DNA of 64,000 nt from Sphingobacteriales bacterium (GTDB taxonomy: Bacteria > Bacteroidota > Bacteroidia > Chitinophagales > CAIOSU01): NCBI GenBank assembly GCA_027486795.1, contig JAIXOI010000023.1:186001-250000 (forward strand). The letters are read 5' to 3'. Under the pieces are notes generated by a model. The model made no database searches and was not told the origin of the DNA. It saw only the letters and a list, made by a program, of their open reading frames with translations. Shown piece after piece: positions 13,724-62,575 of this stretch. The stretch's first letter is position 1. Each line of letters begins with the position of its first letter. The translations under genes were made by a program, and so were the position numbers.

Positions 13724-13726
13724 TAT

Positions 13727-39862: not shown

Positions 39863-40009
39863 TCTTAAATATTGGCACAAACAAAATGATTGCTCAACAA
39901 TGCCCTGAATACGGCAAGCAAATTGACTCCAGCAGCCGATTAAGTTGGTTAAAAAGCCCGTATCGCTAACAAACGTGCCTATTTGTGTAATTTAGTGTTT
40001 GCCAATACT

Positions 40010-41548: not shown

Positions 41549-42512
41549 CCGCCTTATTAATTTCGCCTTGGCTATCAGACTTATTTTGTATCACCTTATC
41601 AATAATAAAAGTAGGCCGATTGCGAGACTCTTCAATAGCCTTCCACATATACTCACCCAAAATACCTAGAAACACCATCATTACACCCGAGAAGGACATA
41701 AACATTAAAGCGAGCCAATCAAATTGCGGCATTGAGGAGGAGAATATAAAGACCCCACTAAGCAACAAAACGAAGTAAATGAAGCTGCAAAGTAATACAA
41801 GTAGCCCTGCGAAAAGACTAAAGCGCAAAGGTATATTGGTAAAAGATACAAGCGAATTAAGAAACAGGTTGAACTTCTTCTTAAAGGTCCACATAGATTT
41901 ACCCTTTTCGCGCTTGCGGCGAATGTAAGGTATGGCCACATAATCAAAATCGAGCCAAGCCAGTAAATAAATAATGTTGGTGTTGGGCTCGTTTATCTTT
42001 ACAATCTCTTCGCGAAGCTGTTTATCAAAAAGAATTAAGTCAAACCCACCCTCTGGCACGTCTTTTAAGGCGAGCGTACGGATAAGAAAATGATAGATAT
42101 TGGAAAGGAAGCTCTGAAAAAATGATTCGTCTCTGCCTACACGATTGGCCACTACAAACTTTACTCCTTTGCGCCAGTGCTCATACATCTTGGGTATCAG
42201 TTCAGGTGGATCTTGTAAGTCGGGGGCCAGCATAATATTACAATCACCAGTAGCATAGTTCATACCTGCGAGTAGGGCATGATACGAACCCACATTTTTT
42301 GCTAGCTTCACTACTTTGGTCTTAAGTGGATACTTGTCGTAGAATTTCATGATTTCGGCAAACGTGTTGTCGCGCGAGTCATCATCTACAAACACATATT
42401 CAAACTCCACATCGGCTGGAAACAGCGCCTCGTTACCGATTAATATCTCGGTAGTTTCGGCTATGTTTTCCTCGCTAAAATAGCAAGGCATAATGATGGA
42501 AATTTTGGGCAT
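41538..42512 (-). CDS. Family 2 glycosyltransferase, polyprenyl-phosphate type, with two C-terminal membrane segments
   Basis: A 324-residue membrane glycosyltransferase of the DPM1/GtrB/ArnC type, which moves a sugar from a nucleotide to undecaprenyl phosphate on the cytoplasmic face. The GT-A core has ISIIMPCYFSEEN, VFVDDDSRDN and the catalytic DLQDPPELI; the two membrane segments (about 230-255 and 265-290) are followed by EYMWKAIEESRNRPTFII. The ATG at 42512 is preferred over a TTG 21 bases upstream. It is the last gene of the first leftward glycan operon. Confidence 0.92.
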   Translation of the reverse strand: MPKISIIMPCYFSEENIAETTEILIGNEALFPADVEFEYVFVDDDSRDNTFAEIMKFYDKYPLKTKVVKLAKNVGSYHALLAGMNYATGDCNIMLAPDLQDPPELIPKMYEHWRKGVKFVVANRVGRDESFFQSFLSNIYHFLIRTLALKDVPEGGFDLILFDKQLREEIVKINEPNTNIIYLLAWLDFDYVAIPYIRRKREKGKSMWTFKKKFNLFLNSLVSFTNIPLRFSLFAGLLVLLCSFIYFVLLLSGVFIFSSSMPQFDWLALMFMSFSGVMMVFLGILGEYMWKAIEESRNRPTFIIDKVIQNKSDSQGEINKAANY

Positions 42513-42564
42513 TGAGCAGGTTTCGTCCGTCAATAATATCTAAAAAAACGGCCGTTGTCAAACT

Positions 42565-42969
42565 TTATCTCCCTAGCGAGAAAAAATCAGACAGGTTTTT
42601 AATGTAATCATCCTCCTCGTACAGGTGGGAGGTAAGGCAAACCAATATGGCATCGGGGCTAAAAATGAGCTTTTTCCAAAACATGGGTGGCACAAATAAG
42701 CCGGTTCTCGAACTGTCCAAGACAAATGATTGCTCGTTGCCTGAAACATCGGTAAGCGACACCTCTATTTTACCAGAAACAGCAACAAATACCTGCGACA
42801 ACTTTCGGTGAGCATGATTACCCACTTCAAGTTTTGGAATTGCTGGGGTTATCCAATAAGTCCGCTTCACGTCAAACGGAATCTGCTTACCTACTTCCGC
42901 TACGTGAATGGCTTTTTCGTTGGTAGCAATTTCTTGCAGCGTAATTAAATATGGTTTTAGTAAATTCAA
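42565..42969 (-). CDS. FdtA/QdtA-like sugar 3,4-ketoisomerase (cupin)
   Basis: A 134-residue single-cupin protein. TYWITP, the metal or catalytic histidines in VGNHAHRKLSQVF, SGKIEVSLTD and VPPMFWKKLIFSP match FdtA/QdtA, which convert a nucleotide-4-keto-6-deoxyglucose to the 3-keto sugar before transamination. The known enzymes use dTDP-sugars; the neighbours here make a CDP-sugar. An FdtB-like aminotransferase lies at 61376. Confidence 0.85.
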   Translation of the reverse strand: MNLLKPYLITLQEIATNEKAIHVAEVGKQIPFDVKRTYWITPAIPKLEVGNHAHRKLSQVFVAVSGKIEVSLTDVSGNEQSFVLDSSRTGLFVPPMFWKKLIFSPDAILVCLTSHLYEEDDYIKNLSDFFSLGR

Positions 42970-43002
42970 GTGGTGGGTGTTCTGTTGCTAAAGATATTGC
43001 TT

Positions 43003-43929
43003 TCACGGTTTAATTGTGGTCAGCAGCTTAAAAATTTCGATTACCTGCGATTCAAAATAGGGATGGGTGTCATATGACACTTGCGATTGAAGTTTGCCGC
43101 AGTCAAACTTCAAACCAACAATATTCCCTACCGTTTCGGGCATATTTATCGTTAACTCCTTTCCAAAATAACCCTGATAAGCAGATGCCACAGCCTCGGC
43201 AACTTTACTAATAGTTACGCTTGTGCCGGACCCAAGGTTATAGATTCCGGTTATGCTATTGTTACTTATTGCCTTCAATATCACCTGGCAAACACTGCCA
43301 AGCCATATCATATCAAGTTGCGTATCGGGCGGCGATTTGAGGATAATCTCGCCCCTTGCAAATGCACCATGGCTTAGATTGTTAAACAACAAGTGCCATG
43401 CATCTACATCAGCGTTCTTGGGTGCGCCGTATACATTGCTCAATCGCAGCGAAACCTTGCGGGTATTATCCCATTCGACGGGAAGGCCTAGCAGGTATTT
43501 TTCAGCCGCCAATTTTGAACGACCATAAGAACTTGATCCGATTAAATTTGGTACTGAATGCTCCGTTATTCGGCCATTAACTGGGCCATATACTTTTATA
43601 GTGGATAAATAGATGAATAGTTTTGGCTTAGCACGTTGCAGCGCAACAATCAGGTTTTGAGTGCCCTTAACATTTACAAGTTCTATGGTTTCTTCATCTG
43701 CCAGTTGGTTTGCAGCCGCAAGGTGCAATACGGTATCAAAGTATTGATTGGATAGAGCTTCTTGAAGCGCCTCTCGGTCCGTTATACAGGCAATCATACT
43801 TTCAACATTTGGATTTGAGTGCGCCTTCCGGCCTAGGTTGGTTACCTCATAGCCAGCATTAAGTAATGATTGTACCACCCAGCCACCAACGTAGCCCGTG
43901 CCACCAGTTATCAATACTTTACCACGCAT
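43003..43929 (-). CDS. Nucleotide-sugar SDR (epimerase/reductase)
   Basis: A 308-residue extended SDR. The NAD(P) motif is TGGTGYVGG, the active site SSYGRSKLAAEKYLL (Tyr/Lys). It resembles 4-reductases and C4-epimerases acting on 4-keto-6-deoxy sugars. The ATG at 43929 is used instead of a TTG two codons upstream. Its 5' end overlaps the 3' end of the RmlC-like gene by 11 bases, so the pair are coupled and may act in sequence: epimerise, then reduce. Confidence 0.88.
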   Translation of the reverse strand: MRGKVLITGGTGYVGGWVVQSLLNAGYEVTNLGRKAHSNPNVESMIACITDREALQEALSNQYFDTVLHLAAANQLADEETIELVNVKGTQNLIVALQRAKPKLFIYLSTIKVYGPVNGRITEHSVPNLIGSSSYGRSKLAAEKYLLGLPVEWDNTRKVSLRLSNVYGAPKNADVDAWHLLFNNLSHGAFARGEIILKSPPDTQLDMIWLGSVCQVILKAISNNSITGIYNLGSGTSVTISKVAEAVASAYQGYFGKELTINMPETVGNIVGLKFDCGKLQSQVSYDTHPYFESQVIEIFKLLTTIKP

Positions 43930-44359
43930 ACTCAATGGCTGAAAGTTCTTTGGTATCGGCTTCAGCCGGGTTATGAACTTGGTTTATGGCATTCCAAAGC
44001 AAATTCTCCCCTTCTGACAGGCCCTCAAACGCCATCCAAATGCCCGGCGGAACAGTTAGCCTTTGGTAATTGTCCGACCCTAAAATAATATCTTCAAACA
44101 AGGCAAACCCAGCACTACCGATTCTAGTATCGTAAAGCACGAAGCGTATTTGCCCCACTGGCACAACTATGTTCAGCGTAATTTCATTGTGCCTACGCCA
44201 ACCTTTTTTTGCACCCTGTTTTATGAACGAGCCATAAACCTCGGCAATGCCCATATAGCCGCGTTCGCCTTCTTTTATAAAGGTAATGGCATCGCCAGCC
44301 TCTACCGGTATTCGGCTGGCCGCCGACAACAAAAGGCCTGGTATACTCAGCTCGCCCAT
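43919..44359 (-). CDS. dTDP-4-dehydrorhamnose 3,5-epimerase-like (RmlC-like) protein
   Basis: A 146-residue cupin of RmlC type. The strand patterns KKGWRRHNEITLNIVVPVGQ and LTVPPGIWMAFEGLSEGEN align with RmlC 'G.LRG.H.Q' and 'iPpGfaHGF', but the usual second His-Gly is MA here. The catalytic set may therefore be altered, giving single-carbon epimerisation or isomerase activity. It overlaps rfbG (13-base overlap at its start) and the SDR gene, so it belongs to the CDP-sugar operon. Confidence 0.78.
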   Translation of the reverse strand: MGELSIPGLLLSAASRIPVEAGDAITFIKEGERGYMGIAEVYGSFIKQGAKKGWRRHNEITLNIVVPVGQIRFVLYDTRIGSAGFALFEDIILGSDNYQRLTVPPGIWMAFEGLSEGENLLWNAINQVHNPAEADTKELSAIEYAW

Positions 44360-45450
44360 ACCAGTTTTTGGTTAACGGCTTTTTGGTAATACCCTTCAAT
44401 CTGTTGCTGTGTAACGGTTAGCATTCCGTCGCCAGCTAAATACGCACGATACCAATCGGCCGTAAGGTCTATAGTCTCATTAAACGACAATACGGGTGCC
44501 CATTGCAATTGAGCATGCGCCTTATCCCAAGTCAGTTTCAAAAGGCCCGCTTCACGGTGGTCTCTGTTTTCGCTTTGGGTAACTACTTCCGAGAGCGGTT
44601 TGTCAGTCATGCGCTTGTTGAGCGTTTCCAGCAGGGTTGCCACGGTTATACTATTGGCATACCCAGGCCCAAAATTAAATGCCTCTCCATGTATATGGTT
44701 ACCCGTTTGTAGTACCTGTCCTAAACGTAGATAAGCACTTACTGGCTCAAGTACAAACTGCCAAGGTCTTGTAGCTTCTGGGTGGCGAAGCTCCATTTTA
44801 GTTTTAGCCTCAATAGCCCTAATAAAATCGGGAACAATACGATGGTCGGACCAATCGCCACCACCTATTACATTACCTGAACGAGCCGTAACCACTTTAA
44901 TATCATCATTGTTGCCGAAAAATGAAGCCACATAAGCATGGGTAATGTGCTCGGCACTTGCCTTGCTGGCACTATATATATCCCGACCGCCTAGGGCATC
45001 GGTTTCGCGGTAGCCCCAAGGCCATTCTTTATTATCATAGCATTTATCGCTGGTTACCACTACCACGCTGCATGGCTTGGCTATTTGGCGCACCGCCTCC
45101 AATACGTTGGCAGTGCCCATGGCATTTACGGCAAGGGTGCCTAGCGGGTCGGTAAACCCATGGCGCACCACCGAGCGCGCGGCCATGTGAAACACAATAT
45201 CGGGAGCTTCGGCGCGCACTGCCTTTAGAACGGCATCGGCGTTACGCACATCAACCCAATATTGCTTTATTGTCCTTTCAAGTTTTAACAGCTCATACAT
45301 TGCCGGACTAGTAGGTAGGGCATCGGCCAAGCCTACAACTTCGGCACCTAGCTGTTGCAGCCACAAGCATAACCAGCTTCCTTTGAAGCCTGTGTTACCA
45401 GTAACTAGTACCTTGGCACCTTTATATTTTCCAGCGAACATTACTTCCAT
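44347..45450 (-). CDS. rfbG: CDP-glucose 4,6-dehydratase
   Basis: Converts CDP-glucose to CDP-4-keto-6-deoxyglucose, the branch point for CDP-linked deoxysugars. About 367 residues. The NAD motif is VTGNTGFKGSWLCLWLQ, the active site YSASKASAEHI, with the RfbG words YDNKEWPWGYRE and RSGNVIGGGDWS. Starts at 45450 and 45441 are both possible; the latter begins MFAGKYKGAKVLVTG and overlaps the rfbF stop as TAATG. Directly follows rfbF. Confidence 0.95.
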   Translation of the reverse strand: MEVMFAGKYKGAKVLVTGNTGFKGSWLCLWLQQLGAEVVGLADALPTSPAMYELLKLERTIKQYWVDVRNADAVLKAVRAEAPDIVFHMAARSVVRHGFTDPLGTLAVNAMGTANVLEAVRQIAKPCSVVVVTSDKCYDNKEWPWGYRETDALGGRDIYSASKASAEHITHAYVASFFGNNDDIKVVTARSGNVIGGGDWSDHRIVPDFIRAIEAKTKMELRHPEATRPWQFVLEPVSAYLRLGQVLQTGNHIHGEAFNFGPGYANSITVATLLETLNKRMTDKPLSEVVTQSENRDHREAGLLKLTWDKAHAQLQWAPVLSFNETIDLTADWYRAYLAGDGMLTVTQQQIEGYYQKAVNQKLVWAS

Positions 45451-46217
45451 ACTTTCCAAAAGGCCCCCTGGTTGTTCCAAATATCGTTTAGCTGAATATT
45501 ATCGCGTTGTGTATCCATACATTTCCAACTGCCATAATGTTTCCGAGCGTGCATTTTGCCTTCATGGGCAAGGTTTCGCATTGGCTGCTGTTCAAAAACA
45601 ACCTCTGGACCATCGCCAATATAATCAAACACTTCGGGCTCGCACACAAAAAAACCCCCGTTTATCCAACTTCCATTGTCTGCTGGCTTTTCCGTAAACG
45701 ACGATACATTGCCATCTTCGTCCATGGTAAGCACCCCAAAGCGGCTTTCGGGCTGCACTGCCGTAACAGTAAGCACCTTGCCACTTTGCTTGTGGCTAGT
45801 TAACAAGGCTGCTAGATCAACATCGGCCAATCCATCTCCGTAAGTAAGCATAAAGGTTTGGTTGCCTACATGGTCCTTGGCCATTTTAATACGAGCGCCA
45901 GTCATGGTTTCAAGGCCTGTTTCTAGCAGTGTCACTTTCCAAGGTTCAGTGTTGTTTTTAAAAGTGCTGAGTTCGTTGCTGCCTAAATCGATAGAAACAT
46001 CGTTTTGGTGCAACGAATAGTTGGCAAAGTACTCCTTTATTTGGTAGCCTTTGTAGCCAAGCAAAATCACAAACTCATTTAAGCCAAACGTGGAATAGTA
46101 CTTCATGATATGCCATAAAATAGGCTTATCACCAATTTGCACCATCGGCTTCGGCATTACGCCCGTTTCTTCCAATAGCCGTGTGCCTTTGCCACCTGCC
46201 AGTATCAATACCTTCAT
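45441..46217 (-). CDS. rfbF: Glucose-1-phosphate cytidylyltransferase
   Basis: Makes CDP-glucose from CTP and glucose-1-phosphate. A 258-residue nucleotidyltransferase: LAGGKGTRLLEETGVMPKPM at the N-terminus (activation loop and Lys), GDKPILWHIMKYYS, and the ending CMDTQRDNIQLNDIWN typical of RfbF. Next gene rfbG overlaps by about 10 bases. No rfbH (3-dehydratase for 3,6-dideoxyhexoses) is in the window. Confidence 0.96.
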   Translation of the reverse strand: MKVLILAGGKGTRLLEETGVMPKPMVQIGDKPILWHIMKYYSTFGLNEFVILLGYKGYQIKEYFANYSLHQNDVSIDLGSNELSTFKNNTEPWKVTLLETGLETMTGARIKMAKDHVGNQTFMLTYGDGLADVDLAALLTSHKQSGKVLTVTAVQPESRFGVLTMDEDGNVSSFTEKPADNGSWINGGFFVCEPEVFDYIGDGPEVVFEQQPMRNLAHEGKMHARKHYGSWKCMDTQRDNIQLNDIWNNQGAFWKVWK

Positions 46218-46271
46218 ATCAACATCTTGATGATGTGTAGTGCTAATATAGCTAAAATATACTGCAACTGC

Positions 46272-46916
46272 CTACCGAAAGCGTTCGCGGGCTATGCGCC
46301 AAAGTATGGAAAAGCCATCGCTGTATTTTACCTTGCTTTGTCCTTTGCGGTCGGCATATTGTATGGGTATCTCCAAATATTTAATGCGGTGTTTTAAAGT
46401 TATGCAGCTTATTTGGGTTTCTACATCAAAATTATTGGCATCAATCAAGGGCAAAAAAGTTTTTACATCGAGGGCGCGCATACCTGAGTTGATATCTTTC
46501 AATTTGCCCCAAAATAGGGTATTAATCAAAAAATTAAACCCATGGTTGCCCAGTCCATTGATAAAAGCGACCTGTTTTTGGTTGCGCGCACCTACCACCA
46601 TTTTGTACTCACCCATGTGCGAGAGCAGCTTGGGTATATCGTGCACAGGATAAGTTTCGTCGCAATCAATAAACAACACCGAATCATAACCCTCATCATT
46701 ACTATATCGTAAAGTTTTTTGAACGCCAGAGCCTTTTCCGGGAGCATCGCGATACAAAACTGTTATGCCCTTCGCCTTTGCAATTTCTACAGTGCCATCG
46801 GTAGAACCAGCATCACAAATAACCAAATCCAGACCTAGTGCCTTTATCTGGTCAATCATAAGGGCAATACTTTGCTTCTCATTTAAAGTAGGTAGGCAAA
46901 CTAGAGCCTTGCTCAT
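46272..46916 (-). CDS. Family 2 glycosyltransferase (DPM1-like, soluble)
   Basis: A 214-residue GT-A protein without membrane segment. LVCLPTLNEKQSI, LVICDAGSTDGT and LFIDCDETYPVHDI give the nucleotide and metal (DxD) sites. Similar to dolichol/polyprenyl-phosphate mannosyl or glucosyl transferases. It overlaps the upstream GT-C-like gene by 4 bases, suggesting that it makes the lipid-linked sugar donor for that protein. Confidence 0.9.
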   Translation of the reverse strand: MSKALVCLPTLNEKQSIALMIDQIKALGLDLVICDAGSTDGTVEIAKAKGITVLYRDAPGKGSGVQKTLRYSNDEGYDSVLFIDCDETYPVHDIPKLLSHMGEYKMVVGARNQKQVAFINGLGNHGFNFLINTLFWGKLKDINSGMRALDVKTFLPLIDANNFDVETQISCITLKHRIKYLEIPIQYADRKGQSKVKYSDGFSILWRIARERFR

Positions 46917-48601
46917 GGTAGCGGTTTTATGCGGTAGATGATAGTATTGTGCGTTTCAAGCTCCATTTGCAAACCACTGTGATTTCTTAAATACGCTTCT
47001 ATTCGCTTATCGTCTTCAAGCAAAGTTAAGTTTTTATGAAAAACTACTACACTTGTACCAAACTGTTGCACCAGCAAACTTAAGGTATTGTCATCAACCA
47101 ACCGGCAAAGCATATCGTCCAACACCAAGCGCGTTTCAGGAAGAAATCCGTTACATCCATTTACCAAATTCAGGTTGTGCTTAGTTTGCCAAAACATGTA
47201 AATATACTCCCTAGAGAATTCATTCAACCCTTTTGGCCAATCGCCACGAGTATACACTGCCGATGGCAGCTCAAGCACCACAGCATCGGTTTCGGCTGTC
47301 AATACATCCAAATAACCTTTATCAGGGTATATGTAGGCCGCAGCATTGTATTTATGCGCTTTGAACGGCACATTCTCAAGCACATAAACACCAATAATTA
47401 GCACCAACAGCAAAATACCCCTCGGCCTGTCTAATAGTCTATCAATAGCAGGCAAGGTTAAACCTATTAGCCCCACGAGCACCAAATACCATAAGCGCAC
47501 AGGATTGCGAATTGACCCATCGAGCCCAGCATACTTATACAATATTTCCATGGGCATTGGTATGCGCACACCAGCAATGTGAATGCAGGGCCCAACGGCC
47601 ATTATAAAACCAATAACCGACAACATCAACCAAATTCTGCTGCGCGCTGGAGCGATAGAATAACCCGCCACGGCCAACACAAAAAACAAAATACCCGGAA
47701 ACACGGCGTGTTGGGCGTAAAAAAACGGATGGTCTTGCAATCCATCTTTCAACGTCGGATAAATTAAATTACCCTCTAGCGGCCGCACCAAGTCGGGCAA
47801 ATCCAAACTTAGCTTGTCAATCATATTAAAGCTATCCACTGGGTTCCAGGCTGTTGATATGCCCCCAGCAGCCCACAGAAACCCAAACAAATAAGGCGCA
47901 ACCAGTAAAGTGGCCAAAACAATTGCACTTGCCAGTTTCTTTATTAACCCTTCAACAGCCAAAGCTTTGCTATAGTAGTATACCCAAAGAAATAGCAGTA
48001 ATAACGCTTGAAACACGAAAATATAAGCCGAAAAATATAACGTGCTGGCCCCTAACAACACCGCAAACAGAAGAAATTTCCATTGACCACCATTTAAAAA
48101 CTTGTTGGAATAGTGTAAACAAAAGAACATGGTACCCAAGTAGAAGGCATTAGGGCTATCCATGTTACCGAAACTAAACACCGATGCGCCTAGCGCCAGC
48201 CCTGCCCAAAAGGCCGTTATGTTTTTCCGAGCCCAATTGCGAAAAAACAAATAAGCCCCAAAAGCATTGGTAGCATATACTACTACCAGCATACTGCACC
48301 AAGCCCAAAGCTCGTTCATGCCTAGCCAACAAAAAGGACGATACAATATTGCGCCAAAAAAACAGGGGTCACCGTACATAAAACCTGGCCCACTAGGGTA
48401 GAGCGCTTCACCCATCCGTAAATCTACAAAAAGCGACAAAACATACGACTCGTATAATTTAAATGCCCCTACATAAAACCAACTATCGGTATTGCCTGTT
48501 AAAGATTCATTGAGCGGGTACTGTAGAAATACAACAGCGAAAAATATTAGGTATAGCCCTAAGAAAAGTATGGATTTTTGGAAGTGAGTTTGTATATTCA
48601 T
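46913..48601 (-). CDS. Polytopic membrane protein, probable GT-C glycosyltransferase (pair A, copy 1)
   Basis: A 562-residue protein with about 11-12 membrane segments and a large C-terminal soluble part. It begins with one segment, then NTDSWFYVGAF and ALYPSGPGFMYGDP in the first loop. Acidic residues there fit the GT-C fold, which uses polyprenyl-phosphate sugars outside the inner membrane. FSREYIYMFWQTKHN and CNGFLPETRLV near the end are shared with the 54320 protein of exactly the same length. First gene of the leftward operon, 22 bases from the divergent sulfotransferase-like gene. Confidence 0.85.
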   Translation of the reverse strand: MNIQTHFQKSILFLGLYLIFFAVVFLQYPLNESLTGNTDSWFYVGAFKLYESYVLSLFVDLRMGEALYPSGPGFMYGDPCFFGAILYRPFCWLGMNELWAWCSMLVVVYATNAFGAYLFFRNWARKNITAFWAGLALGASVFSFGNMDSPNAFYLGTMFFCLHYSNKFLNGGQWKFLLFAVLLGASTLYFSAYIFVFQALLLLFLWVYYYSKALAVEGLIKKLASAIVLATLLVAPYLFGFLWAAGGISTAWNPVDSFNMIDKLSLDLPDLVRPLEGNLIYPTLKDGLQDHPFFYAQHAVFPGILFFVLAVAGYSIAPARSRIWLMLSVIGFIMAVGPCIHIAGVRIPMPMEILYKYAGLDGSIRNPVRLWYLVLVGLIGLTLPAIDRLLDRPRGILLLVLIIGVYVLENVPFKAHKYNAAAYIYPDKGYLDVLTAETDAVVLELPSAVYTRGDWPKGLNEFSREYIYMFWQTKHNLNLVNGCNGFLPETRLVLDDMLCRLVDDNTLSLLVQQFGTSVVVFHKNLTLLEDDKRIEAYLRNHSGLQMELETHNTIIYRIKPLP

Positions 48602-48623
48602 TTGGAATTGCTAAAATACCCAA

Positions 48624-50327
48624 ATGCCACACAAATTGAAGCAATTATTTATCATCATATTGCACGTGGCGATATTTAGCCACAGTGCACTGCTTGCGCA
48701 AACCATCCGCAACTTTACCTTACCAGTTGGTCCGGACTATACCTTTACCGAGCATAAAAGGCCCGCGGCTGGCTATACTTTTATTGGCTCTTACCGATTT
48801 TCGTTGGCGGCCAACTTCCCTTCAACTATTTTGATAATTGATGAGGATGGAGCCCCAGCTTTTGTTAAGGAACGCACACTAGGCCAAGGTTTACTTGCCG
48901 ACTTTAGAGTTTATGACAATGGATTGATGTCGTATTACAGATACGACGAACCTACAGACAAAGGTAAGTACATGGTAATGGATTCGACCTTTACGATTAT
49001 CGACTCAGTAGAATGTGCCAACGGTCTTAAAACTGATGGGCACGACATGCTTATACTCGAAAATGGTAACTACTTGATCCTTTGCCTTGAGGAAAAAATA
49101 ATGGACCTGCGCTCCCTCACCACCGACGATGGCTTTCCGGGTTTGGCCAATGGTAATGTTGTTGCGCCTGTTATTCAAGAGCTTGATGCGAATAGAAATG
49201 TACTGTTCGGTTGGCACGGATTGGAATATTACACTTTTGCCGATGTAAATGCTTATTTTTTTTTGGACCCTGACTTTCTCGATTTTGGCCATCCAAATGC
49301 CTTAACAATGGACTTGGATGGTAACATACTTATGTCGCTGCGGTTTTTTAACGAAATTACCAAAATAAACCGTGCCGACTCGAGCATTGTATGGCGCTTG
49401 GGAGGCAAAAGCAATGATTTTACTTTTGTAAACGATTCTCAACCATTTACCACCCAACACCATTGTACAATATTGCCCAATGGCAATTTGACCTTATACG
49501 ACAATAGTGAATTGGGCACTACACCCAGGCCAAGAGGGGTTGAATATGAACTAAATATTGCAAACATGACCGCCACCAATGTTTGGGAGTACGCTTATGA
49601 TACCAGCAGGTTTAGCTACTCGTTAGGTAGTATGGATAGAATTGGAACTAATGGCAATAGCATCATCAATTGGGGGGCAGGATATAACCCAGGTTTCGAG
49701 AATGACATTGTTGAAGTAACCTATGATGGCGACCTAGTTTCGGAATTTGATTGGCCTCAAGACTATTTTGCATACAAGGCCTACAAACGCACCCCTATTT
49801 GGAGTTTGGAAGCGTTGAGGCCAACAATTACCTGTGATACCTCTCAAGGTGTAACAACGCTTACCGCAACAGCTGGGTATGGTAACTACTTGTGGAATAC
49901 TGGAGACACCACACAAACCATAACCATAAACCAATTGGGCAACTATTATGTAATGGTAAGCAACTTTGACGAGAAAGGGTATTTTGGCTCTCGGATGAAA
50001 ACGATTGTAGACTTATCGAACCCGTGTTTTGTGCCCGACTCCACTAACGATACTACTTCCGTTTTTAGCCCGTTTGAGCCATCGGTTCAATTTAAATGCT
50101 ATCCAAACCCCGCCCAAAAAAATCTTACATTAGCAAATTATGGTCATTCAGGCCAAGAGCATTTAGCGCTGTATAACGCTTTAGGGGCTGTTGTTTTTAG
50201 CCAACCATTAACTGTTGAGGGTGACCCAATAAATGTTGCCGAACTGCCGAATGGCAGCTACATAGGTGTAGTTACTAGCTCAGAAGGCAAGCTGGTTAAG
50301 CGATTTAAATTTTTGGTATTGCACTAA
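48624..50327 (+). CDS. Arylsulfotransferase-like protein in the glycan locus, T9SS type A domain
   Basis: A 567-residue secreted protein with a signal peptide (1-25), an ASST-like propeller (40-400), an Ig-like segment (410-460) and a T9SS type A domain (FKCYPNPAQKNLTL, ELPNGSYIGVV). Candidate active-site residues: His140 (GHD), His223 (GHPNA), Arg240 and His279/280 (QHH). The N-terminal region lacks the fibronectin-like part of the 33882 protein. Placed inside a glycan locus, it may sulfate a surface glycan, but ASST usually acts on phenols. Its stop overlaps the convergent SGNH gene by 4 bases. Confidence 0.83.
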   Translation: MPHKLKQLFIIILHVAIFSHSALLAQTIRNFTLPVGPDYTFTEHKRPAAGYTFIGSYRFSLAANFPSTILIIDEDGAPAFVKERTLGQGLLADFRVYDNGLMSYYRYDEPTDKGKYMVMDSTFTIIDSVECANGLKTDGHDMLILENGNYLILCLEEKIMDLRSLTTDDGFPGLANGNVVAPVIQELDANRNVLFGWHGLEYYTFADVNAYFFLDPDFLDFGHPNALTMDLDGNILMSLRFFNEITKINRADSSIVWRLGGKSNDFTFVNDSQPFTTQHHCTILPNGNLTLYDNSELGTTPRPRGVEYELNIANMTATNVWEYAYDTSRFSYSLGSMDRIGTNGNSIINWGAGYNPGFENDIVEVTYDGDLVSEFDWPQDYFAYKAYKRTPIWSLEALRPTITCDTSQGVTTLTATAGYGNYLWNTGDTTQTITINQLGNYYVMVSNFDEKGYFGSRMKTIVDLSNPCFVPDSTNDTTSVFSPFEPSVQFKCYPNPAQKNLTLANYGHSGQEHLALYNALGAVVFSQPLTVEGDPINVAELPNGSYIGVVTSSEGKLVKRFKFLVLH

Positions 50328-51436
50328 TGGCAAGCCGAAAGCTGCGTACTTAGCGCTTGTTGCATGGCTTGCTTTATCAGTTGATTTGCATGGGCATTGA
50401 AATGATAATCAACTAGCACTGGTGGGTTGCCGTGCCAAAAACAATATGCACGCTCGTATGCACTTTTATCGGTAATGCTTGGTTGCGCCCAAAGCACTTC
50501 ATCGGCATCTACCAACAATACATTTTCGTTCAATACTTGTGAGAAAAGTTGTCCAAATCGTCCAATTTGGTCTTTTTCAAACCCCATCACCAAGAGCACC
50601 AATTTACGGTCTTGGCTAAGCGAGATGATTTCCTCTACTGCCAAAGCGGTGGCCTTTTCAGCATTGTTTAAAGGGATTGCATTATCGCTTGCAAAAGAAA
50701 AGTTGAGTTTCAATTCTTCCCAATATTGTTTCTGGAACACCAAGCGTGTAAAATGCCAAACAAACACAAACTTATCAAAAAATGATATCGGGCTTTGCCT
50801 ATACTTATCGAGTAAGCGATTTTGAGTAAGCTCAAAAATTGGGGTGGTATACAAAGGAGGAGTAATTGCACCGCTTTGATCGTAGTAAGGTGAGGGCACT
50901 TTGAAAAACAAGGCCGGCATATAAGGCGTTACAGCTCGTTCGGCTAACCATGGCGACACTTGGAAAACCACAGCACTAGGCTGTACCTGCTTAATATAAG
51001 TGCGCGCCTTTAAAATCATTTGAGCATAACCATAACCGCTCACAGCAGCATTCTGAACTGGCTGACATAGGGCATCACCGATTAAATACGGATACGCTTG
51101 GCTATAATCCAACTCCTCGCAAAGTGTAAATGAATCGCCTAAAAACAGCAGTCCCCCCTCGGCAGGCGCAATGCCCGTTCTTATCCTAAAACCCCTACTA
51201 TCTGTTTTTATTTCCACTGAGTCGCCATGGCCCCAAATATAATGCCCTTGGGTATTGGGTATGATGGTATGGCCCAAGCTTTCATCAGCGGCATATAAAC
51301 TAGAAGTATAGCTATTGGCTTCCTTTGTAAAATGGTAAATGGGCATAGAAACGTGCCATAAGTAAGCAAACCAAACACCGTAAAGCAGTATGCCCGTTAA
51401 AGCTATTAAAACAAGAAGGAAAGCATTTCTTTTCAT
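50324..51436 (-). CDS. Membrane-anchored SGNH/GDSL hydrolase-like protein
   Basis: A 370-residue protein with one N-terminal membrane segment (MKRNAFLLVLIALTGILLYG). GGLLFLGDSFTLCEEL is the SGNH block I (catalytic Ser); DYHFNAHANQLI near the end supplies the Asp/His. These proteins esterify or deacetylate glycans in the periplasm, for example O-acetylation partners. The ATG at 51436 overlaps the stop of the preceding gene (TAATG); a TTG 27 bases upstream is less likely. Confidence 0.85.
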   Translation of the reverse strand: MKRNAFLLVLIALTGILLYGVWFAYLWHVSMPIYHFTKEANSYTSSLYAADESLGHTIIPNTQGHYIWGHGDSVEIKTDSRGFRIRTGIAPAEGGLLFLGDSFTLCEELDYSQAYPYLIGDALCQPVQNAAVSGYGYAQMILKARTYIKQVQPSAVVFQVSPWLAERAVTPYMPALFFKVPSPYYDQSGAITPPLYTTPIFELTQNRLLDKYRQSPISFFDKFVFVWHFTRLVFQKQYWEELKLNFSFASDNAIPLNNAEKATALAVEEIISLSQDRKLVLLVMGFEKDQIGRFGQLFSQVLNENVLLVDADEVLWAQPSITDKSAYERAYCFWHGNPPVLVDYHFNAHANQLIKQAMQQALSTQLSACH

Positions 51437-52812
51437 TACAGAGGGCTTTGGTTTTTGAGCCAAGAAGAAAAACGCTCCCCAAATAAAATGGCCCCTTTTT
51501 GATTCCAGTGCAAATCGTATTGATAATAGTATTTTTCAGCGTCCTCTTTAGGCATGGCATTGAAGCAGCTAAACCCATTAAAATATGAGATATTGAACGA
51601 TTGGGCAAGCACTTGCATTTCAGCATGAGTGTGGTTAGCCCATGCTGTATCTTTTACACCCGATACATCTGGTATGCCTACTAGTATTACTTCTTTACCG
51701 GTTTGCTGGCAATGCACAACAATTTGTTCAAGCAGGTTTATGTATGAGTACTTTTGTTTTAAATCAGCCAAACTCGTCACTTTCTTATTCTCCGGAAACC
51801 GTTCGGCAACTTTTAGCTTATAGGCTTTAAAATCATCTTCCAGCTTAAAATAAGTCCCCAATTGCTTAAAGATAATAATGGAGGTATGCAAAAAATACAA
51901 ATCAAGCGGTTGAAGTGATAGTTTTCTTTTACAATTAGGTTGATAAGTGCAGATAACCTCATCCAATTTATTTTCAGCTATCAAGGAGTATCCCTTGGTC
52001 ATTTGCGGTAACTGGCGGTAAAAATAATCTGGTGGTGGCATGGTATCATACTGACCTATTAAGGTAGCCCCGTTGGCAGAATGCATAATCATAAGCTTCC
52101 TATCCAAGTCTGATATACCAAATCGCTCATTGCTGGTAGCAATTATAAGCCCATCAAATTCGTACTTCAATATTTCATTGAAATAGATTCGGAACCAATT
52201 GTTTATGCCGATTCCTTCCAAAGCAAAATTATATAGCTCAACAGAATCCAACATACCCATGGCCAAATCGGGCCAGGCGTTTGCAACATTAAACCCTGCT
52301 GAAAAAGAGTCGCCTAATACAGCATATCTTTTTACTCCTGCTCTTTTCTGAGGAATATAATCAGTACTGCTAAACCAACCTTGATTATTGATATGCGATA
52401 TGTGATCATACTCTAGCACTCCGTTGCTGCACTTTACGTTTCTAAAACTACCCGGAATGCCTCTATAGCCAATAACACTATCGAACTGTGCCCAAGGTTG
52501 GGTGTTGGCTTCAAACCTATTATCTAGAAACTGGGCATCGGTGCGCACCACGTTTAATGTAAAAAGCACGTAAACCAATACTTCAGCAAAAAGATAAAAC
52601 ATGTGCAGCATTACAACATAAAAATATCGCTTTCGTGCCGTTGCACTATCCGACCTAAAAAGCCATACTTGGGCTATGGCCGAAACCAGCGCAAAACTCA
52701 TAATCAGCCTAGATAAAATAGAAACCGGCATTAAAAAAAACACGTACGCCCATATCAAAACCGAGAAGGCAAGGTTGATGACAAACACCCACTGATTGAT
52801 TCTATTGGTCAA
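51436..52812 (-). CDS. Membrane-anchored SGNH/GDSL hydrolase-like protein, longer paralog
   Basis: A 458-residue protein with three or four N-terminal membrane segments (about 10-30, 35-52, 65-90), then a periplasmic SGNH domain: RYAVLGDSFSAGFN (Ser), ALEGIGINN and YQYDLHWNQKGAILF (Asp-x-x-His). Possible O-acetyl transfer or deacetylation of glycans, as for AlgJ/AlgX-type proteins. It precedes the shorter SGNH gene with a 1-base overlap, so the two probably act together. Confidence 0.83.
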   Translation of the reverse strand: MTNRINQWVFVINLAFSVLIWAYVFFLMPVSILSRLIMSFALVSAIAQVWLFRSDSATARKRYFYVVMLHMFYLFAEVLVYVLFTLNVVRTDAQFLDNRFEANTQPWAQFDSVIGYRGIPGSFRNVKCSNGVLEYDHISHINNQGWFSSTDYIPQKRAGVKRYAVLGDSFSAGFNVANAWPDLAMGMLDSVELYNFALEGIGINNWFRIYFNEILKYEFDGLIIATSNERFGISDLDRKLMIMHSANGATLIGQYDTMPPPDYFYRQLPQMTKGYSLIAENKLDEVICTYQPNCKRKLSLQPLDLYFLHTSIIIFKQLGTYFKLEDDFKAYKLKVAERFPENKKVTSLADLKQKYSYINLLEQIVVHCQQTGKEVILVGIPDVSGVKDTAWANHTHAEMQVLAQSFNISYFNGFSCFNAMPKEDAEKYYYQYDLHWNQKGAILFGERFSSWLKNQSPL

Positions 52813-52813
52813 C

Positions 52814-53542
52814 TTATTTCTTTTTAAAAAAACGGTAATAAAATAAGTTGTAGATAAACTCTATAACCGTGTCGTAACCTACCAATGTTTTTCTGCGTTC
52901 GTTTTCGTAAAATATGGTAGAGAGCTCGCCTATGCTAAGTTTATTGTTCAAGGCCTCAATCATTATCTCCGCATCGGTAAACCAGTCGCTCGAAACGAGG
53001 TTAAATTTTTCATAACACGCACGTGTCATTACTTTGGGCTTTGAGTTGATATCATGCAATGGGTAACCCGGCATGTACAGCACTTTAAAAAGCAAATTGT
53101 AAACTGATGATAAGGCAGTTCGGTAATAACCATCGTGGCGCTGAGCACGGTATGTTTTCACCAAATCGTAATTTCCAGCTTGCAGCATACGGTATACTTT
53201 CACCACATCGCTAATAGGCATTTGCCCATCGCCATCAATCACCGCTATGTGCTTGCCCTTAGCACTTTCAAGTCCAGAACGCATATCCCAACCCATACGA
53301 CCCTTCTTTTCTTTCGACACCACCCTAAACCTTGGCTTGTTTTCAGCCATTTGCGTTACTATGGTTGGGGTATTGTCAGCGCTTCCCGAGTCGTAATTGG
53401 CCACCAAAATCAGTTCATAATCAATTTGGTCGTCTTCTAGCTCTTTTTCAAGCTGAGCCACAAAATCTTTAATATAGTAACCTGCCCGGTAGCAAAGCAC
53501 TACTACCGACAATTCGGGCACAGATATAATTGAGTGGGGCAT
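52814..53542 (-). CDS. Family 2 glycosyltransferase (DPM1-like)
   Basis: A 242-residue GT-A enzyme without membrane segment. LSVVVLCYRAGYYIKDF, the nucleotide site, IAVIDGDGQMPISDV (DxD) and LHDINSKPKVMTR match polyprenyl-phosphate sugar transferases. The ATG at 53542 overlaps the upstream SDR stop as TGATG; a TTG one codon earlier is dismissed. Sits between the SDR and SGNH genes of the second leftward glycan operon. Confidence 0.9.
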   Translation of the reverse strand: MPHSIISVPELSVVVLCYRAGYYIKDFVAQLEKELEDDQIDYELILVANYDSGSADNTPTIVTQMAENKPRFRVVSKEKKGRMGWDMRSGLESAKGKHIAVIDGDGQMPISDVVKVYRMLQAGNYDLVKTYRAQRHDGYYRTALSSVYNLLFKVLYMPGYPLHDINSKPKVMTRACYEKFNLVSSDWFTDAEIMIEALNNKLSIGELSTIFYENERRKTLVGYDTVIEFIYNLFYYRFFKKK

Positions 53543-54270
53543 CAACGGCGGGCTTTGTTCATCAAGGCGGTGTACATGCTATTGGGAAGGTAGCGCAAAA
53601 TTTGGTAAACAACACTGCTACTCAATGGATAAATATGGGTAACTCCCGTTTTTCTGGACAAATGCCTTAAAAATCGGGCCACTTGGGCGGGCTCAATGGC
53701 CAAAAGGCTCTTGTTACGCTTCGCATATCGGTTAATGGTAGTATTTACAGGGCCCAGATATATTACCTTGGTTTCGATACCGCCGTTGCCATTTGCTTGG
53801 ATAAAAAAATCAGCCAACGCTCTTTTGGCAGCAGCATAGGATGGGTTTAGCGGATCGGGCAATAAGGCAAACATGGATGATATAGCCACAAAACAGGTTG
53901 GTGAATGGGGCCTATGCACCAATAAGTCGTATAGTTTTACGGGTGCGGTATAGTTACAATCCAGCATCATTTGCCGGTGCTGCGGCGTGCTGAAAGTTTC
54001 GTCATCAGTGCTGTAAACCCCTGCCACTAAAAACACCCTCTTCGGATAAAAGCCTGCATCGTCAAGCGCCGAAATAATGGTTTCTAAGCCTTTGTCGCTC
54101 GTTAAATCAGCGGCTATGTAATTAAACTTATCGCCCAACTCGTTTTTCAACGATTGCAAAGTATCTATTGAACGGGCTATGCCCCACACCTCGTGCCCTG
54201 CATGCACCAGTTCACGAACCAGCGCCATACCAATGCCTTTAGATGCTCCGGTAACTAATGCTTTCAACAT
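53542..54270 (-). CDS. Classical SDR family oxidoreductase
   Basis: A 242-residue short-chain dehydrogenase: NAD(P) motif TGASKGIGMALV, NYTAPVKL-type loop, SSMFALLPDPLNPSYAAAKRAL (Ser-Tyr-Lys catalytic set). It reduces or oxidises a hydroxyl; in a glycan locus this could be a sugar or lipid. The ATG at 54270 starts MLKALVTGASKG; the upstream TTG adds 24 poorly fitting residues. Confidence 0.88.
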   Translation of the reverse strand: MLKALVTGASKGIGMALVRELVHAGHEVWGIARSIDTLQSLKNELGDKFNYIAADLTSDKGLETIISALDDAGFYPKRVFLVAGVYSTDDETFSTPQHRQMMLDCNYTAPVKLYDLLVHRPHSPTCFVAISSMFALLPDPLNPSYAAAKRALADFFIQANGNGGIETKVIYLGPVNTTINRYAKRNKSLLAIEPAQVARFLRHLSRKTGVTHIYPLSSSVVYQILRYLPNSMYTALMNKARR

Positions 54271-54319
54271 AGGTGGGTTACACTGTTCAACAATAGATGT
54301 TAAAAATAAGGCTTCGTGG

Positions 54320-56008
54320 TCAATTTTTGCCGATGACCGCAAACATCTGATAGCTACTGGTGCTATCTATGCGCTCCAAGTAGTCACATTGGTTCAGCAA
54401 GTTTAAGACTGAAACCTCGCCGGGTAGCTCCAACCTGGTATGGTACACAATGTAGTTAACCCCATTTTTAAACACCACTTCGCGCAAAGCTTCAGCGTCG
54501 GGCAATTTCTCGGTCAATTTTGAATTAGCCAAACGCTGTGGCGGAAAGAAAGCCACCGCCCCATTGAGGCTGTTTTGCTTATGCTTGCTCTGCCAATACA
54601 TGTATATGTACTCGCGAGAAAACTGATTGATCGGTTTGCCCAAATCGATGTTGTTAAAATTAAGCGTCGAAGGCAAATCAAGCAACACGGCCAAACTATC
54701 GTGACCCGCTATTGCTGGGTATGGGTTGTCATCTATAATGTATTGCCTCGATTGGTATTTCTCGAATGGGAAAGGAATATTTTCGAGTATAAACATTCCT
54801 CCAGCCATTAATAAGATTAAGAGCGCTGGCAGCCTAATGCGGGCTGCAATGACCATGATACCAAAGCCCGCAAACAGCCCCAGCATAAGGCTAGTAATAA
54901 AAAACATCCGCGCTGAGTGACGGATAAAGGCCCCCAAATCGGTTACTTGATATAGCCAGCCCATAGGCATGGTTATCACTTGCCCATCAATAGTGATAGA
55001 TGGGCCCAATGCAATAAAAAACGAAACTAGAGCTATAATACCCACTTCCCAGCGGAATGATGGGCGAGCTAAAATGCCGATAACGGCTAAAGCATAAAAA
55101 GCAAACCCAAGTGATGCCGACCTCAGATTATAGATAAATATTTGTGGCAAATCGTGTTGAATGCCATATAGCAGGTTGTTGGGCAGCACACGGTAGAGGT
55201 CGTTTACATTTAGGCTCAAGGCCTCAAGAGCACTCATATCGCCACGCGAGGGATTATAAAAATCGTTCAATTCAGGGTTTAACAAGTACACCACCATATA
55301 TGGCAAAGCTAACAATACATGCAAGGGTAAAGCCAGTAAAACCTTAATCCAAGCATTGGCCATAAACATCTGCCTATAATGCACCAACCCTATTATAAGC
55401 AGCACAAACGATTGGAAGATAAAAGTATAGGTGCCAAAATATATCTGCACACCACCCACAACCATTGCCAATATCAGATTGACACTTTTGCGGTGCAATA
55501 GATACTCCCTAAAATGATAGATACAGATAATGGCTGGAAAGTAGGTGAGGGTATTTTGGTTCTCAATATTGCCAAACGCAAAGCTACTTGCGGCGAAAGC
55601 CAGTGCAGTAAATATTGCCGGTACTTGCTGCTTTAAATATTGACGGGCCAATACAAAGGCAGCCGTGGCATTTAGGGTAAATATGCTTACCAAAAAGCCA
55701 TAATACGCCCACAAATCATTAAACCGAAGCAACTTAAAAAATAAAAAGAAGGCAGCAGAAGCAAAGGAAGGCTCTAAATATGCATATGGGGCACCTGCAG
55801 GATAAAGGCAGTGACCTAACGCCTCACCAGTAAAAACGCGCTCAATATGGTTGCCATAATCATTGAATAATGCAAGGTAAAGCCAAGTATCAATATAGCC
55901 TGGCAGTGAGCCTGCTAATGGAAATTGCACGAACAGCAAGCCAAAAAATAGCAAGAATAAGCAAAACACCTGCAGTGTAAAGGAAGACGGTTTGAATGCT
56001 GCTGCCAT
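54320..56008 (-). CDS. Polytopic membrane protein, probable GT-C glycosyltransferase (pair A, copy 2)
   Basis: A 562-residue polytopic protein, paralog of the 46913 protein. Start chosen at MAAAFKPSSF because this aligns with the paralog and gives the same length; an upstream frame adds 45 residues. Shared landmarks: YIDTWLYLALF and LYPAGAPYAYLEP in the first loop, FIRHSARMFF, and FSREYIYMYWQSKHK near the C-terminus. About 11 membrane segments. First gene of the second leftward operon, followed by SDR, GT2 and two SGNH genes. Confidence 0.85.
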   Translation of the reverse strand: MAAAFKPSSFTLQVFCLFLLFFGLLFVQFPLAGSLPGYIDTWLYLALFNDYGNHIERVFTGEALGHCLYPAGAPYAYLEPSFASAAFFLFFKLLRFNDLWAYYGFLVSIFTLNATAAFVLARQYLKQQVPAIFTALAFAASSFAFGNIENQNTLTYFPAIICIYHFREYLLHRKSVNLILAMVVGGVQIYFGTYTFIFQSFVLLIIGLVHYRQMFMANAWIKVLLALPLHVLLALPYMVVYLLNPELNDFYNPSRGDMSALEALSLNVNDLYRVLPNNLLYGIQHDLPQIFIYNLRSASLGFAFYALAVIGILARPSFRWEVGIIALVSFFIALGPSITIDGQVITMPMGWLYQVTDLGAFIRHSARMFFITSLMLGLFAGFGIMVIAARIRLPALLILLMAGGMFILENIPFPFEKYQSRQYIIDDNPYPAIAGHDSLAVLLDLPSTLNFNNIDLGKPINQFSREYIYMYWQSKHKQNSLNGAVAFFPPQRLANSKLTEKLPDAEALREVVFKNGVNYIVYHTRLELPGEVSVLNLLNQCDYLERIDSTSSYQMFAVIGKN

Positions 56009-56056
56009 AGTTGCCTGAACGTGGGGTGCACAAACAAATACAAAAACCCACTTTGT

Positions 56057-56064
56057 CAAAGATA
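56057..56064 (-). promoter_or_regulatory. Candidate -7 element for the second glycan operon
   Basis: TATCTTTG on the minus strand, 49 bases before the start. TAGCTTTG at 56081-56074 is a second exact match on the same strand. A TTG lies 23 bases upstream of the first. Confidence 0.4.
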
Positions 56065-56107
56065 ACCAAAATACAAAGCTAACCGCCCAATTGCTTATTT
56101 TCACGAA

Positions 56108-57943
56108 ATGCAAGCGAAAAAACCAGCAACAGAACTCAACCAAAACGGCAAAGGCCAGCTGCCTGCGTTGTTGGTAATGGTTATGATGTTGCTAGCTGCA
56201 ATTAAGCTGGGCCTCCAGGTTTGGGGAGCCAATAAAGGTTTTGACATTTGGGATGAAGGGCTATACATCCTCATGCTCAATTTCTTTGACCAATATCCTA
56301 CTGAGCCACATAATTATTATAGCTATGTAATGGCAATCATACTGCCGCTTAAGGAATATGGGTTGTTACCATTAAGGCTTTTAGCTATTGGCATAGAAAC
56401 CGCAGGCATTGCTTTTTTCTCCTACTGCATTCATCAGTTTTTTGCGCATCGGCCAAGTGCGCCTTTTCGTTTTTCATTGCCACCATTTCCGCTTATGCTG
56501 TTTGTTTTTTTAGGTGCAGCATTCTTGTCGGTTTATGCAAGGGCATTCTCTTACAACGATTTTAGCTACTTCAGCACACTAGTGGTAAGTGGTTTGTTGA
56601 TGTTGTTTTTTAAAGATGGCAAGCCGCTTACTAGGCCTGCACAACTAGGCGGGCTATTGCTGTTTTTTATTATCGGAGGATTGCTAGGTGCGCAGCTAAT
56701 TGTAAAATTTAGCACTTGCATTTTACTGGTGTTTTGGGTGTTGGTTTTCATTGCACTCTTTTCAAAACAATCAAAGAATTATATAGCCCTATTGGCATTA
56801 TTTTTATTTACTGGCTTTGTCGTGTTTTTAACGTCATTACTGGGCGGCTATCAGGGTTTTAGCATTTGGCTGTACAACCTAAACGAAGGTGTGGCTCAAC
56901 TGCGTCAAATTGCCTACGAGCCTTATTACATTATTGTGAAAGGCTACCTATATGTTGATTTAGTATTGAATGGTGTTTATTTTATTGCCCCGTTGGTGAT
57001 AGCATTCTTTGCTTTCAAGAACTTAAACAAAAGGAATGCGGGAAGCAAAACTACGCACCACTTAATGGCTTATGCAGCAGGCACACTTACTTGGCTGGTT
57101 TGCTCGCTAGCTATTCCGCAAGGGTTCTTGGGCGAATTCCATTATCGTTTTATTGCCCTGCACATATTCACGCTACTGTATTGGGGCATTCCCGAGTTTA
57201 AACACCTTTTACAACAAAAGCAATGGCAGTGGTTGTTGTTTTTGGGTTTACTCATAGCCCTTCCGTTTATGTCATTATTGGGCAGCAGCAATACCGCTAC
57301 TCAAACACTCACGCGCTACCTTGCCCCATGGTTTGCTGTCATTATGTTGTTTTTGGGCTGTCAGTTAAAAGAAGACAAGAAGGCATATATTGGCATGTTA
57401 CTGTTTTTAATCACTTTTTCTGGGGTAAACTATGCAGTGGTGCAAGTGTACAACCCCTACGGATTGAATGCCCCGCTAACAGAGCAAAACACGATGGTAA
57501 GTGGTTTGGATTACTTGAACGGCATCTCGTTTGACAAACGTACAGCCACTTTCTTTGAGGAGTTGAAAGATGCAACCATGAAGTCTGGATACCAAAAAGG
57601 TGGCCCCATATTAGCCTTAGGCGACCTATGCGGCGCAGTAACCGCCATGGGTGGTTATATACCCGAAACCTTCTGGTACTTTAGTGATGAGAATGCCATA
57701 TCACCAGCGCATTCCCACAATTTCAGTTGTAAACACCTCAGCAATTTGCGAATAGCAGAGCACTTACGCTTGCCCCTTATTTATATCAATATCGGCATAA
57801 ACCAACATGTGATTGATTGTCTATCGAATAGCGAGGTACCTTTCCCTGAAGCATACTATCTCGAAAGCACTTTTTTCAACCCGTATGCCCAAGAAAGTTT
57901 AGCGGTATGGGTACCCAAGCAATGGAAGTTGCCAAGGCAGTAG
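56108..57943 (+). CDS. Polytopic membrane protein, probable GT-C-type (pair B, copy 1)
   Basis: A 611-residue protein with about 12 membrane segments and a C-terminal globular part. After the first segment comes GFDIWDEGLYILMLNFF; the acidic Asp-Glu pair fits the GT-C catalytic loop. GFLGEFHYRFIALH is shared with copy 2 (PQWHYRFIDL). The cysteine-containing end (NFSCKHLSNLR) has a counterpart in copy 2. Divergent from the 54320 gene by 99 bases. Probably transfers a lipid-linked sugar outside the inner membrane; acceptor unknown. Confidence 0.8.
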   Translation: MQAKKPATELNQNGKGQLPALLVMVMMLLAAIKLGLQVWGANKGFDIWDEGLYILMLNFFDQYPTEPHNYYSYVMAIILPLKEYGLLPLRLLAIGIETAGIAFFSYCIHQFFAHRPSAPFRFSLPPFPLMLFVFLGAAFLSVYARAFSYNDFSYFSTLVVSGLLMLFFKDGKPLTRPAQLGGLLLFFIIGGLLGAQLIVKFSTCILLVFWVLVFIALFSKQSKNYIALLALFLFTGFVVFLTSLLGGYQGFSIWLYNLNEGVAQLRQIAYEPYYIIVKGYLYVDLVLNGVYFIAPLVIAFFAFKNLNKRNAGSKTTHHLMAYAAGTLTWLVCSLAIPQGFLGEFHYRFIALHIFTLLYWGIPEFKHLLQQKQWQWLLFLGLLIALPFMSLLGSSNTATQTLTRYLAPWFAVIMLFLGCQLKEDKKAYIGMLLFLITFSGVNYAVVQVYNPYGLNAPLTEQNTMVSGLDYLNGISFDKRTATFFEELKDATMKSGYQKGGPILALGDLCGAVTAMGGYIPETFWYFSDENAISPAHSHNFSCKHLSNLRIAEHLRLPLIYINIGINQHVIDCLSNSEVPFPEAYYLESTFFNPYAQESLAVWVPKQWKLPRQ

Positions 57944-57965
57944 CCATATTCTTTTGTTAAAAACC

Positions 57966-57973
57966 TAAATTTG
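57966..57973 (+). promoter_or_regulatory. Candidate -7 element for pair B copy 2
   Basis: TAAATTTG, an exact TAnnTTTG match 15 bases before the ATG at 57989. No -33 TTG at normal spacing. Confidence 0.35.
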
Positions 57974-57988
57974 ATGTAATATACCTCA

Positions 57989-61321: not shown

Positions 61322-61375
61322 TATTAAGGTTGTTTTGTACCTTTATTTAGCCCTCGGCACCAAAAAGCCGCATAT

Positions 61376-62503: not shown

Positions 62504-62575
62504 TATGTCGTTCATTGAGATTTAATTGATTTTTTGTCTAATTTGCAACTGCACGAGGCGCACACTTCCTGATAT

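Follow-up and report, generated by a model that had tools for sequence, protein, structure and literature searches.

The window, that is the whole stretch of 64,000 nucleotides of Sphingobacteriales DNA analysed here, contains an open reading frame at 48624-50327 of the plus strand, which starts with ATG and encodes 567 amino acids. Its translation was matched by Pfam to the arylsulfotransferase (ASST) family PF05935 (E 5.9e-19, 68.8 bits versus a curated cut-off of 24.2) and to PF14269 (E 1.4e-14), and the predicted membership of the ASST family is well beyond chance. From the N- to the C-terminus the protein comprises a putative signal peptide, a catalytic propeller, a small beta-rich domain and a type IX secretion (T9SS) tail, all encoded on the plus strand. 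The signal peptide (residues 1-26, 48624-48701) was called by eye from a hydrophobic stretch in the translation, and the structural model has a helix at residues 2-22. Structure superposition places the beta-propeller at about residues 32-396 (48717-49811), including H140, H223, N225, R240 and H279. The accessory domain (about residues 397-465, 49812-50018) was delimited by strands of the model between residues 401 and 460, and residues about 391-480 resemble stretches of long open reading frames of relatives. The tail, which had already been named in the original prediction, was confirmed as a T9SS type A C-terminal sorting domain at residues 493-561 (50100-50306; PF18962 E 9e-9, TIGR04183 E 1e-9). 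The N-terminal Ig-like domain of E. coli-type ASSTs (PF17425) had no Pfam match in this open reading frame; it was present in only 2 of 16 proteins of the order and thus does not define the whole ASST family.

Around the gene, Pfam annotation revealed GT2, nucleotidyltransferase, NDP-sugar dehydratase, epimerase, FdtA-like and DegT genes, in agreement with the glycan locus originally proposed for this region. A minus strand block (41538-46916) encodes two GT2 proteins, an FdtA-like protein, an epimerase, a dTDP-sugar isomerase-like protein (below the Pfam cut-off), an NDP-sugar dehydratase-type protein and a nucleotidyltransferase. The region 52814-63550 contains GT2, short-chain dehydrogenase, DegT aminotransferase and epimerase/dehydratase genes together with genes for proteins without a Pfam match. 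Adjoining the glycan locus, a Twitch-domain radical SAM protein is encoded at 39983-41548 on the plus strand (NF033640 above cut-off). The divergent neighbour of the ASST gene (46913-48601, minus strand) is located 22 bases away and encodes a hydrophobic protein of 562 amino acids without a Pfam match. The convergent neighbour (50324-51463, minus strand), which overlaps the ASST gene by 4 bases, may encode an SGNH-type hydrolase, a weak assignment; the protein has no Pfam match, and its PDB matches are weak, including acyl-CoA thioesterase I at E 0.2. For the neighbour at 51436-52812 the PDB search returned no match. Since the ASST gene lies on the plus strand between two minus strand genes, it is not co-transcribed with these two neighbours.

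Predicted fold and active-site residues

The protein was modelled with AlphaFold2 using 12 sequences (pLDDT 80.3, pTM 0.73), and the predicted fold is an ASST-type beta-propeller. In comparisons with VIA-align the best match was an intermediate of Cpz4, the caprazamycin ASST of Streptomyces sp. (9kf6; Z 42.6, rmsd 2.2, 340 residues aligned). The superposition on the E. coli ASST, which had been suggested as a check together with the original prediction, resulted in Z 31.6 (3ets; rmsd 3.0, 340 residues aligned). The best structure outside the ASSTs was 3no2 (Z 21.9, rmsd 3.4, 262 aligned); TolB, LRP6 and NHL propellers ranked well under the ASSTs and were rejected. At the sequence level the protein is only 15-24% identical to the two solved ASSTs. 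A search with the single sequence detected Cpz4 at E 3.5e-22 and the E. coli ASST at E 0.4, and a profile of 21 proteins detected them at E 2e-71 and E 6.6e-23, respectively. This set of 21 (A1) was assembled without same-genus and own-genome duplicates, without matches confined to the tail region and without the loci L011, L017 and L045 (L011, the locus of G015, appears as L104 in set A6).

In the alignment of the profile, H140, H223, N225, R240 and H279 fall on H252, H356, N358, R374 and H436 of the E. coli ASST, whose residues were numbered by counting along the 3elq alignment. The residues match the E. coli site column by column, and the model superposes over residues 32-395. Furthermore, in the H436N mutant structure (4p04) the Asn stands in the column of His279. 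A 2026 review (PMC13426309) names His252, His356, Asn358, Arg374 and His436 together with Thr501 as the ASST active site. The E. coli numbers given in the original prediction agree with the count along 3elq and with the review. The assignment of His140, His223 and Arg240 was likewise upheld, and Asn225, corresponding to Asn358, is a fifth match that had not been listed before. The fourth position had been left between His279 and His280; the column of His280 varies, whereas that of His279, which belongs to a Q-H motif, is invariant, and His280 was rejected as the catalytic residue. Judged from these alignments, the transiently sulfated histidine should be His279 (codon 49458-49460, plus strand; aligned with 3elq and 4p04), the equivalent of E. 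coli His436.

H140, H223, N225 and H279 are invariant in all 21 proteins of the first set and in all 16 of a second set, which shares five members with the first (the window protein, G006, G007, G008 and G051) and adds 11 new ones. Arg240 is present in 19/21 and 13/16 proteins, respectively. Leu334 stands in the column of E. coli Thr501, which is variable among relatives and possibly misaligned. The window protein, its three orthologues and a paralogue of the same genome (paralogue 2, see below) all retain these five residues.

Cpz4 (9kf4, 9kf6) and the E. coli CFT073 ASST (3elq, 3ets, 4p04) thus share the five active-site residues and the propeller fold with the window protein. Cpz4 differs in being an antibiotic-pathway enzyme of Streptomyces and is 24% identical. 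The T9SS is not known to occur in Streptomyces. The E. coli enzyme is periplasmic, has Thr501 and is 18% identical; its N-terminal beta-sandwich domain has no counterpart in the model, the E. coli chain being aligned from its residue 103. A further enzyme, the AST of Bacteroides vulgatus, is likened to the window protein by its description: in the review it is a PAPS-independent enzyme of a member of the Bacteroidota, which undergoes histidine sulfation and is described with phenolic donors and acceptors (PMC13426309).

Conservation of the locus and related ASSTs

Orthologues were found in all four same-genus genomes searched, with identities of 95, 92, 61 and about 53-54%. Three of their loci, L036 (ASST 95% identical), L035 (92%) and L037 (about 53-54%), were compared with the window, the fourth orthologue (G004) being outside this comparison. 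The gene arrangement is the same in all three, and both direct neighbours of the ASST gene are conserved in each of them; the sole difference is that the gene at 51436-52812 is missing from L037. For the ASST gene, dN/dS amounts to 0.079 in the comparison with L036 and to 0.093 with L035; synonymous sites are saturated in the comparison with L037. The gene is under purifying selection. Synonymous divergence against L036 is uneven across 46272-52812, ranging from 0.04 (50324-51463) to 1.75 (46272-46916), which suggests recombination within the locus.

The genome encodes four PF05935 genes. Besides the gene described here these are 33882-35768 in the window, a third gene on the same contig, located 12.5 kb past the window (paralogue 2; L047:14550-16211, which is C28:262549-264210), and one on contig C14, the product of which has no Arg240. 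The gene at 33882-35768 (minus strand) encodes a T9SS protein of the ASST family with 628 amino acids and an intact H/H/N/R/H set (PF05935 E 1.8e-31, PF18962 E 7.4e-12), and it is flanked by genes for a fatty acid desaturase and a phosphatidylserine decarboxylase. Its orthologue in G001 is located ~110 kb from the orthologue of the gene at 48624-50327 (~14 kb in the window), and the latter is still in the glycan block. Paralogue 2 is 36% identical to the protein at 48624-50327 over most of its length and is convergent with a GT2 gene. In a tree of the 21 proteins, the group of the window protein clusters with paralogue 2 and with the ASST encoded by a same-family genome, G006; support is moderate (86/90). 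Genes for GT2, nucleotidyltransferase, acyltransferase and ABC ATPase proteins are found no further than about 11 kb from the G006 ASST. Because paralogue 2 is found beside a GT2 gene and the G006 ASST among glycan-type genes, the clade has a glycan theme.

Across the order, PF05935 was found in 95 of 198 genomes. Two of these, G008 (L049, L050) and G068, each have at least nine ASST copies of about 700 amino acids, some of them in tandem in G008. The neighbours of ASSTs in the order were compared with those of control T9SS genes at 15 of the 20 ASST loci fetched, the other five genomes having no control place. Neighbours were mechanically called open reading frames within 4.5 kb of the core one, some of which are not genes; proteins from 1500 amino acids upwards were excluded, and contig ends truncated several of the stretches. 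No glycosyltransferase was among the 25 commonest Pfam families listed for the 93 ASST neighbours, and the same was true for the 94 control neighbours. A general enrichment of glycosyltransferases around the ASSTs of the order was therefore rejected, there being no excess over the control, with matches of one or two members still possible. The commonest family among the ASST neighbours was PhyH (7/93), three members of which are assigned to G006 by name; from their lengths and places we infer that the other four come from the same locus. PhyH dioxygenase genes run up to the G006 ASST (L053:4172-9165), and open reading frames of similar size are present at 11675-14095.

A sulfotransferase subfamily associated with ASSTs

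Family PF13469 is known for enzymes that use PAPS. Genes of this family were found in 126 genomes, namely 79 of the 95 with PF05935 and 47 of the 103 others, counts that are uncorrected for kinship and genome size. PF13469 accounts for two of the 93 ASST neighbours (G006, G116) and is not among the 25 control families listed. At least four ASST-PF13469 pairs lie within 15 kb (150 ASST places versus 38 PF13469 places). In G006 the ASST gene (L053:9166-11526) overlaps a PF13469 sulfotransferase gene, in G116, G098 and G082 such a gene directly precedes the ASST gene on the same strand; the distance in G158 is about 5 kb. When the neighbours were searched with a profile built from six PF13469 loci (L056-L061), both ASST-linked sulfotransferases were missed, an indication that they belong to another subfamily. 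The PF13469 genes of G006, G116, G098, G082 and G158 do form one subfamily, being 30-50% identical to the first.

A search with these five added 12 genomes in which the subfamily is matched at E values under 1e-100. The neighbourhoods were compared in 14 of the resulting 17 genomes, G081, G101 and G028 being left aside. Among the nine further places, the subfamily gene of G113 ends 16 bases before a same-strand ASST gene, and a clear ASST lies beside that of G110. G032 and G040 have only a weak ASST match nearby (E 7e-15 and 1.2e-9), and at the other five places no ASST was found within about 4 kb on each side, contig permitting. An ASST is thus encoded beside or within 5 kb of this subfamily in seven genomes (G006, G116, G082, G098, G158, G113 and G110; ASST loci L053:9166-11526, L096, L126, L127, L128, L154 and L156). 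The genome of the window encodes an APS kinase and two other PF13469 genes, both on other contigs than the ASST gene; the ASST-paired subfamily was absent from this genome at E 1e-10.

Export and proposed function

The translocon protein SprA of the T9SS is encoded on the same contig (TIGR04189, E 0, 2605 bits). The protein shares the PF18962/TIGR04183 tail and, judged by eye, a putative signal peptide with T9SS type A cargo, and its export by the T9SS is, on sequence grounds, very probable. T9SS tails were detected on eight of 16 ASSTs in one set of the order, window protein included, and ASST export by this route therefore seems to be common in the order. Each of the 20 relatives searched has between 49 and at least 150 matches to PF18962, which makes a single T9SS gene among glycan genes unremarkable by itself. 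Our literature search, which mostly did not extend to subscription papers and preprints, returned no report of an ASST as T9SS cargo. In the portion of the literature that was searchable, type IX secretion and sulfotransferases were mentioned together only in broiler transcriptome work.

The assignment to the enzyme class is well supported and very likely correct. Taken together, family, fold, residue identities, sorting domain, SprA, purifying selection and conserved position indicate that the protein is probably an ASST-family sulfotransferase that acts outside the cell and independently of PAPS, which we consider the best explanation as a whole. The original prediction of a PAPS-independent, T9SS-exported sulfotransferase is borne out by family, fold, residues, tail and SprA, while its cell-surface location, like the activity, the donor and the acceptor, is inferred. 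The signal peptide would direct the protein across the inner membrane. The type A tail would then make it a substrate of the T9SS, which would deliver it to the surface of the cell or into the medium. There His279, aided by His140, His223, Asn225 and Arg240, would accept the sulfuryl group of an aryl sulfate and hand it on to an acceptor hydroxyl in a ping-pong reaction.

As the original prediction had also considered, the likeliest acceptor, which we propose tentatively, would be a hydroxyl group on the surface glycan that this locus makes; the main alternative is a small phenol or another secreted molecule. The conserved placement of the gene favours the glycan, as does the nearest structure, that of the sugar-sulfating Cpz4, whereas the opposite strand and the missing general link between ASSTs and glycosyltransferases in the order argue against it. 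A surface ASST might instead swap sulfate between aryl sulfates and environmental or cell-made phenols, in detoxification or signalling, with the glycan locus being a mere address, and this has a real, if less than even, chance of being correct. It would fit with the ASSTs of the order in general having no glycan neighbourhood, and, according to PMC13426309, characterised ASSTs have mostly been tested on and are active on phenols, including the Bacteroides vulgatus enzyme. A locus position kept down to 53% identity and a clade found in glycan-type loci speak against a mere address; in addition, the same review describes a preference of Cpz4, the nearest solved structure, for a sugar hydroxyl over phenols as acceptor (PMC13426309). 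Sulfate transfer could also have been lost, leaving a structural or binding T9SS propeller. Many propellers are scaffolds, Arg240 is gone in some relatives, and E. coli Thr501 is not clearly matched, with Leu334 in an uncertain alignment; yet the conservation of the other five active-site residues in orthologues and paralogue 2 and the purifying selection on the gene make this very unlikely.

The ASST-linked sulfotransferases hint at a possible donor route. In caprazamycin synthesis, Cpz6 loads the donor for Cpz4. In a comparable sulfate relay, a cytoplasmic PAPS-dependent sulfotransferase would load a phenolic carrier, which would be exported and used by the surface ASST on the glycan. The overlapping gene pair in G006, whose ASST belongs to the same clade as the window protein, the subfamily members directly before same-strand ASST genes in G098, G082, G116 and G113, the more frequent occurrence of PF13469 in ASST genomes, uncorrected as it is, and the presence of an APS kinase gene and two members of PF13469 in the genome itself are consistent with such a relay. 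This is countered by the distribution of the subfamily, since five of its nine further places are without an ASST and two have a weak match only, and by the location of the genome's own PF13469 genes on other contigs. We consider a relay unlikely here; because the paired subfamily is absent from this genome, it is a lead in the relatives and, for the window, no more than a possibility. In a wider form of the proposal, which we regard as similarly doubtful, some Bacteroidota would add sulfate to their own surface glycan extracellularly, by means of an aryl sulfate that receives its sulfate from PAPS in the cell and is then exported, and of a T9SS-delivered ASST.

According to the 2026 review, neither the natural acceptor nor the physiological role has been established for most ASSTs (PMC13426309). 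A T9SS-exported ASST that is fixed in one glycan locus offers a concrete, testable candidate for an acceptor, and a testable donor route is suggested by the pairing, in relatives, of ASSTs with a single subfamily of sulfotransferases. If the relay to a surface glycan were true, it would provide the ASST family with a natural acceptor and the cell with a way of making sulfated polysaccharide in which PAPS is required in the cytoplasm only.
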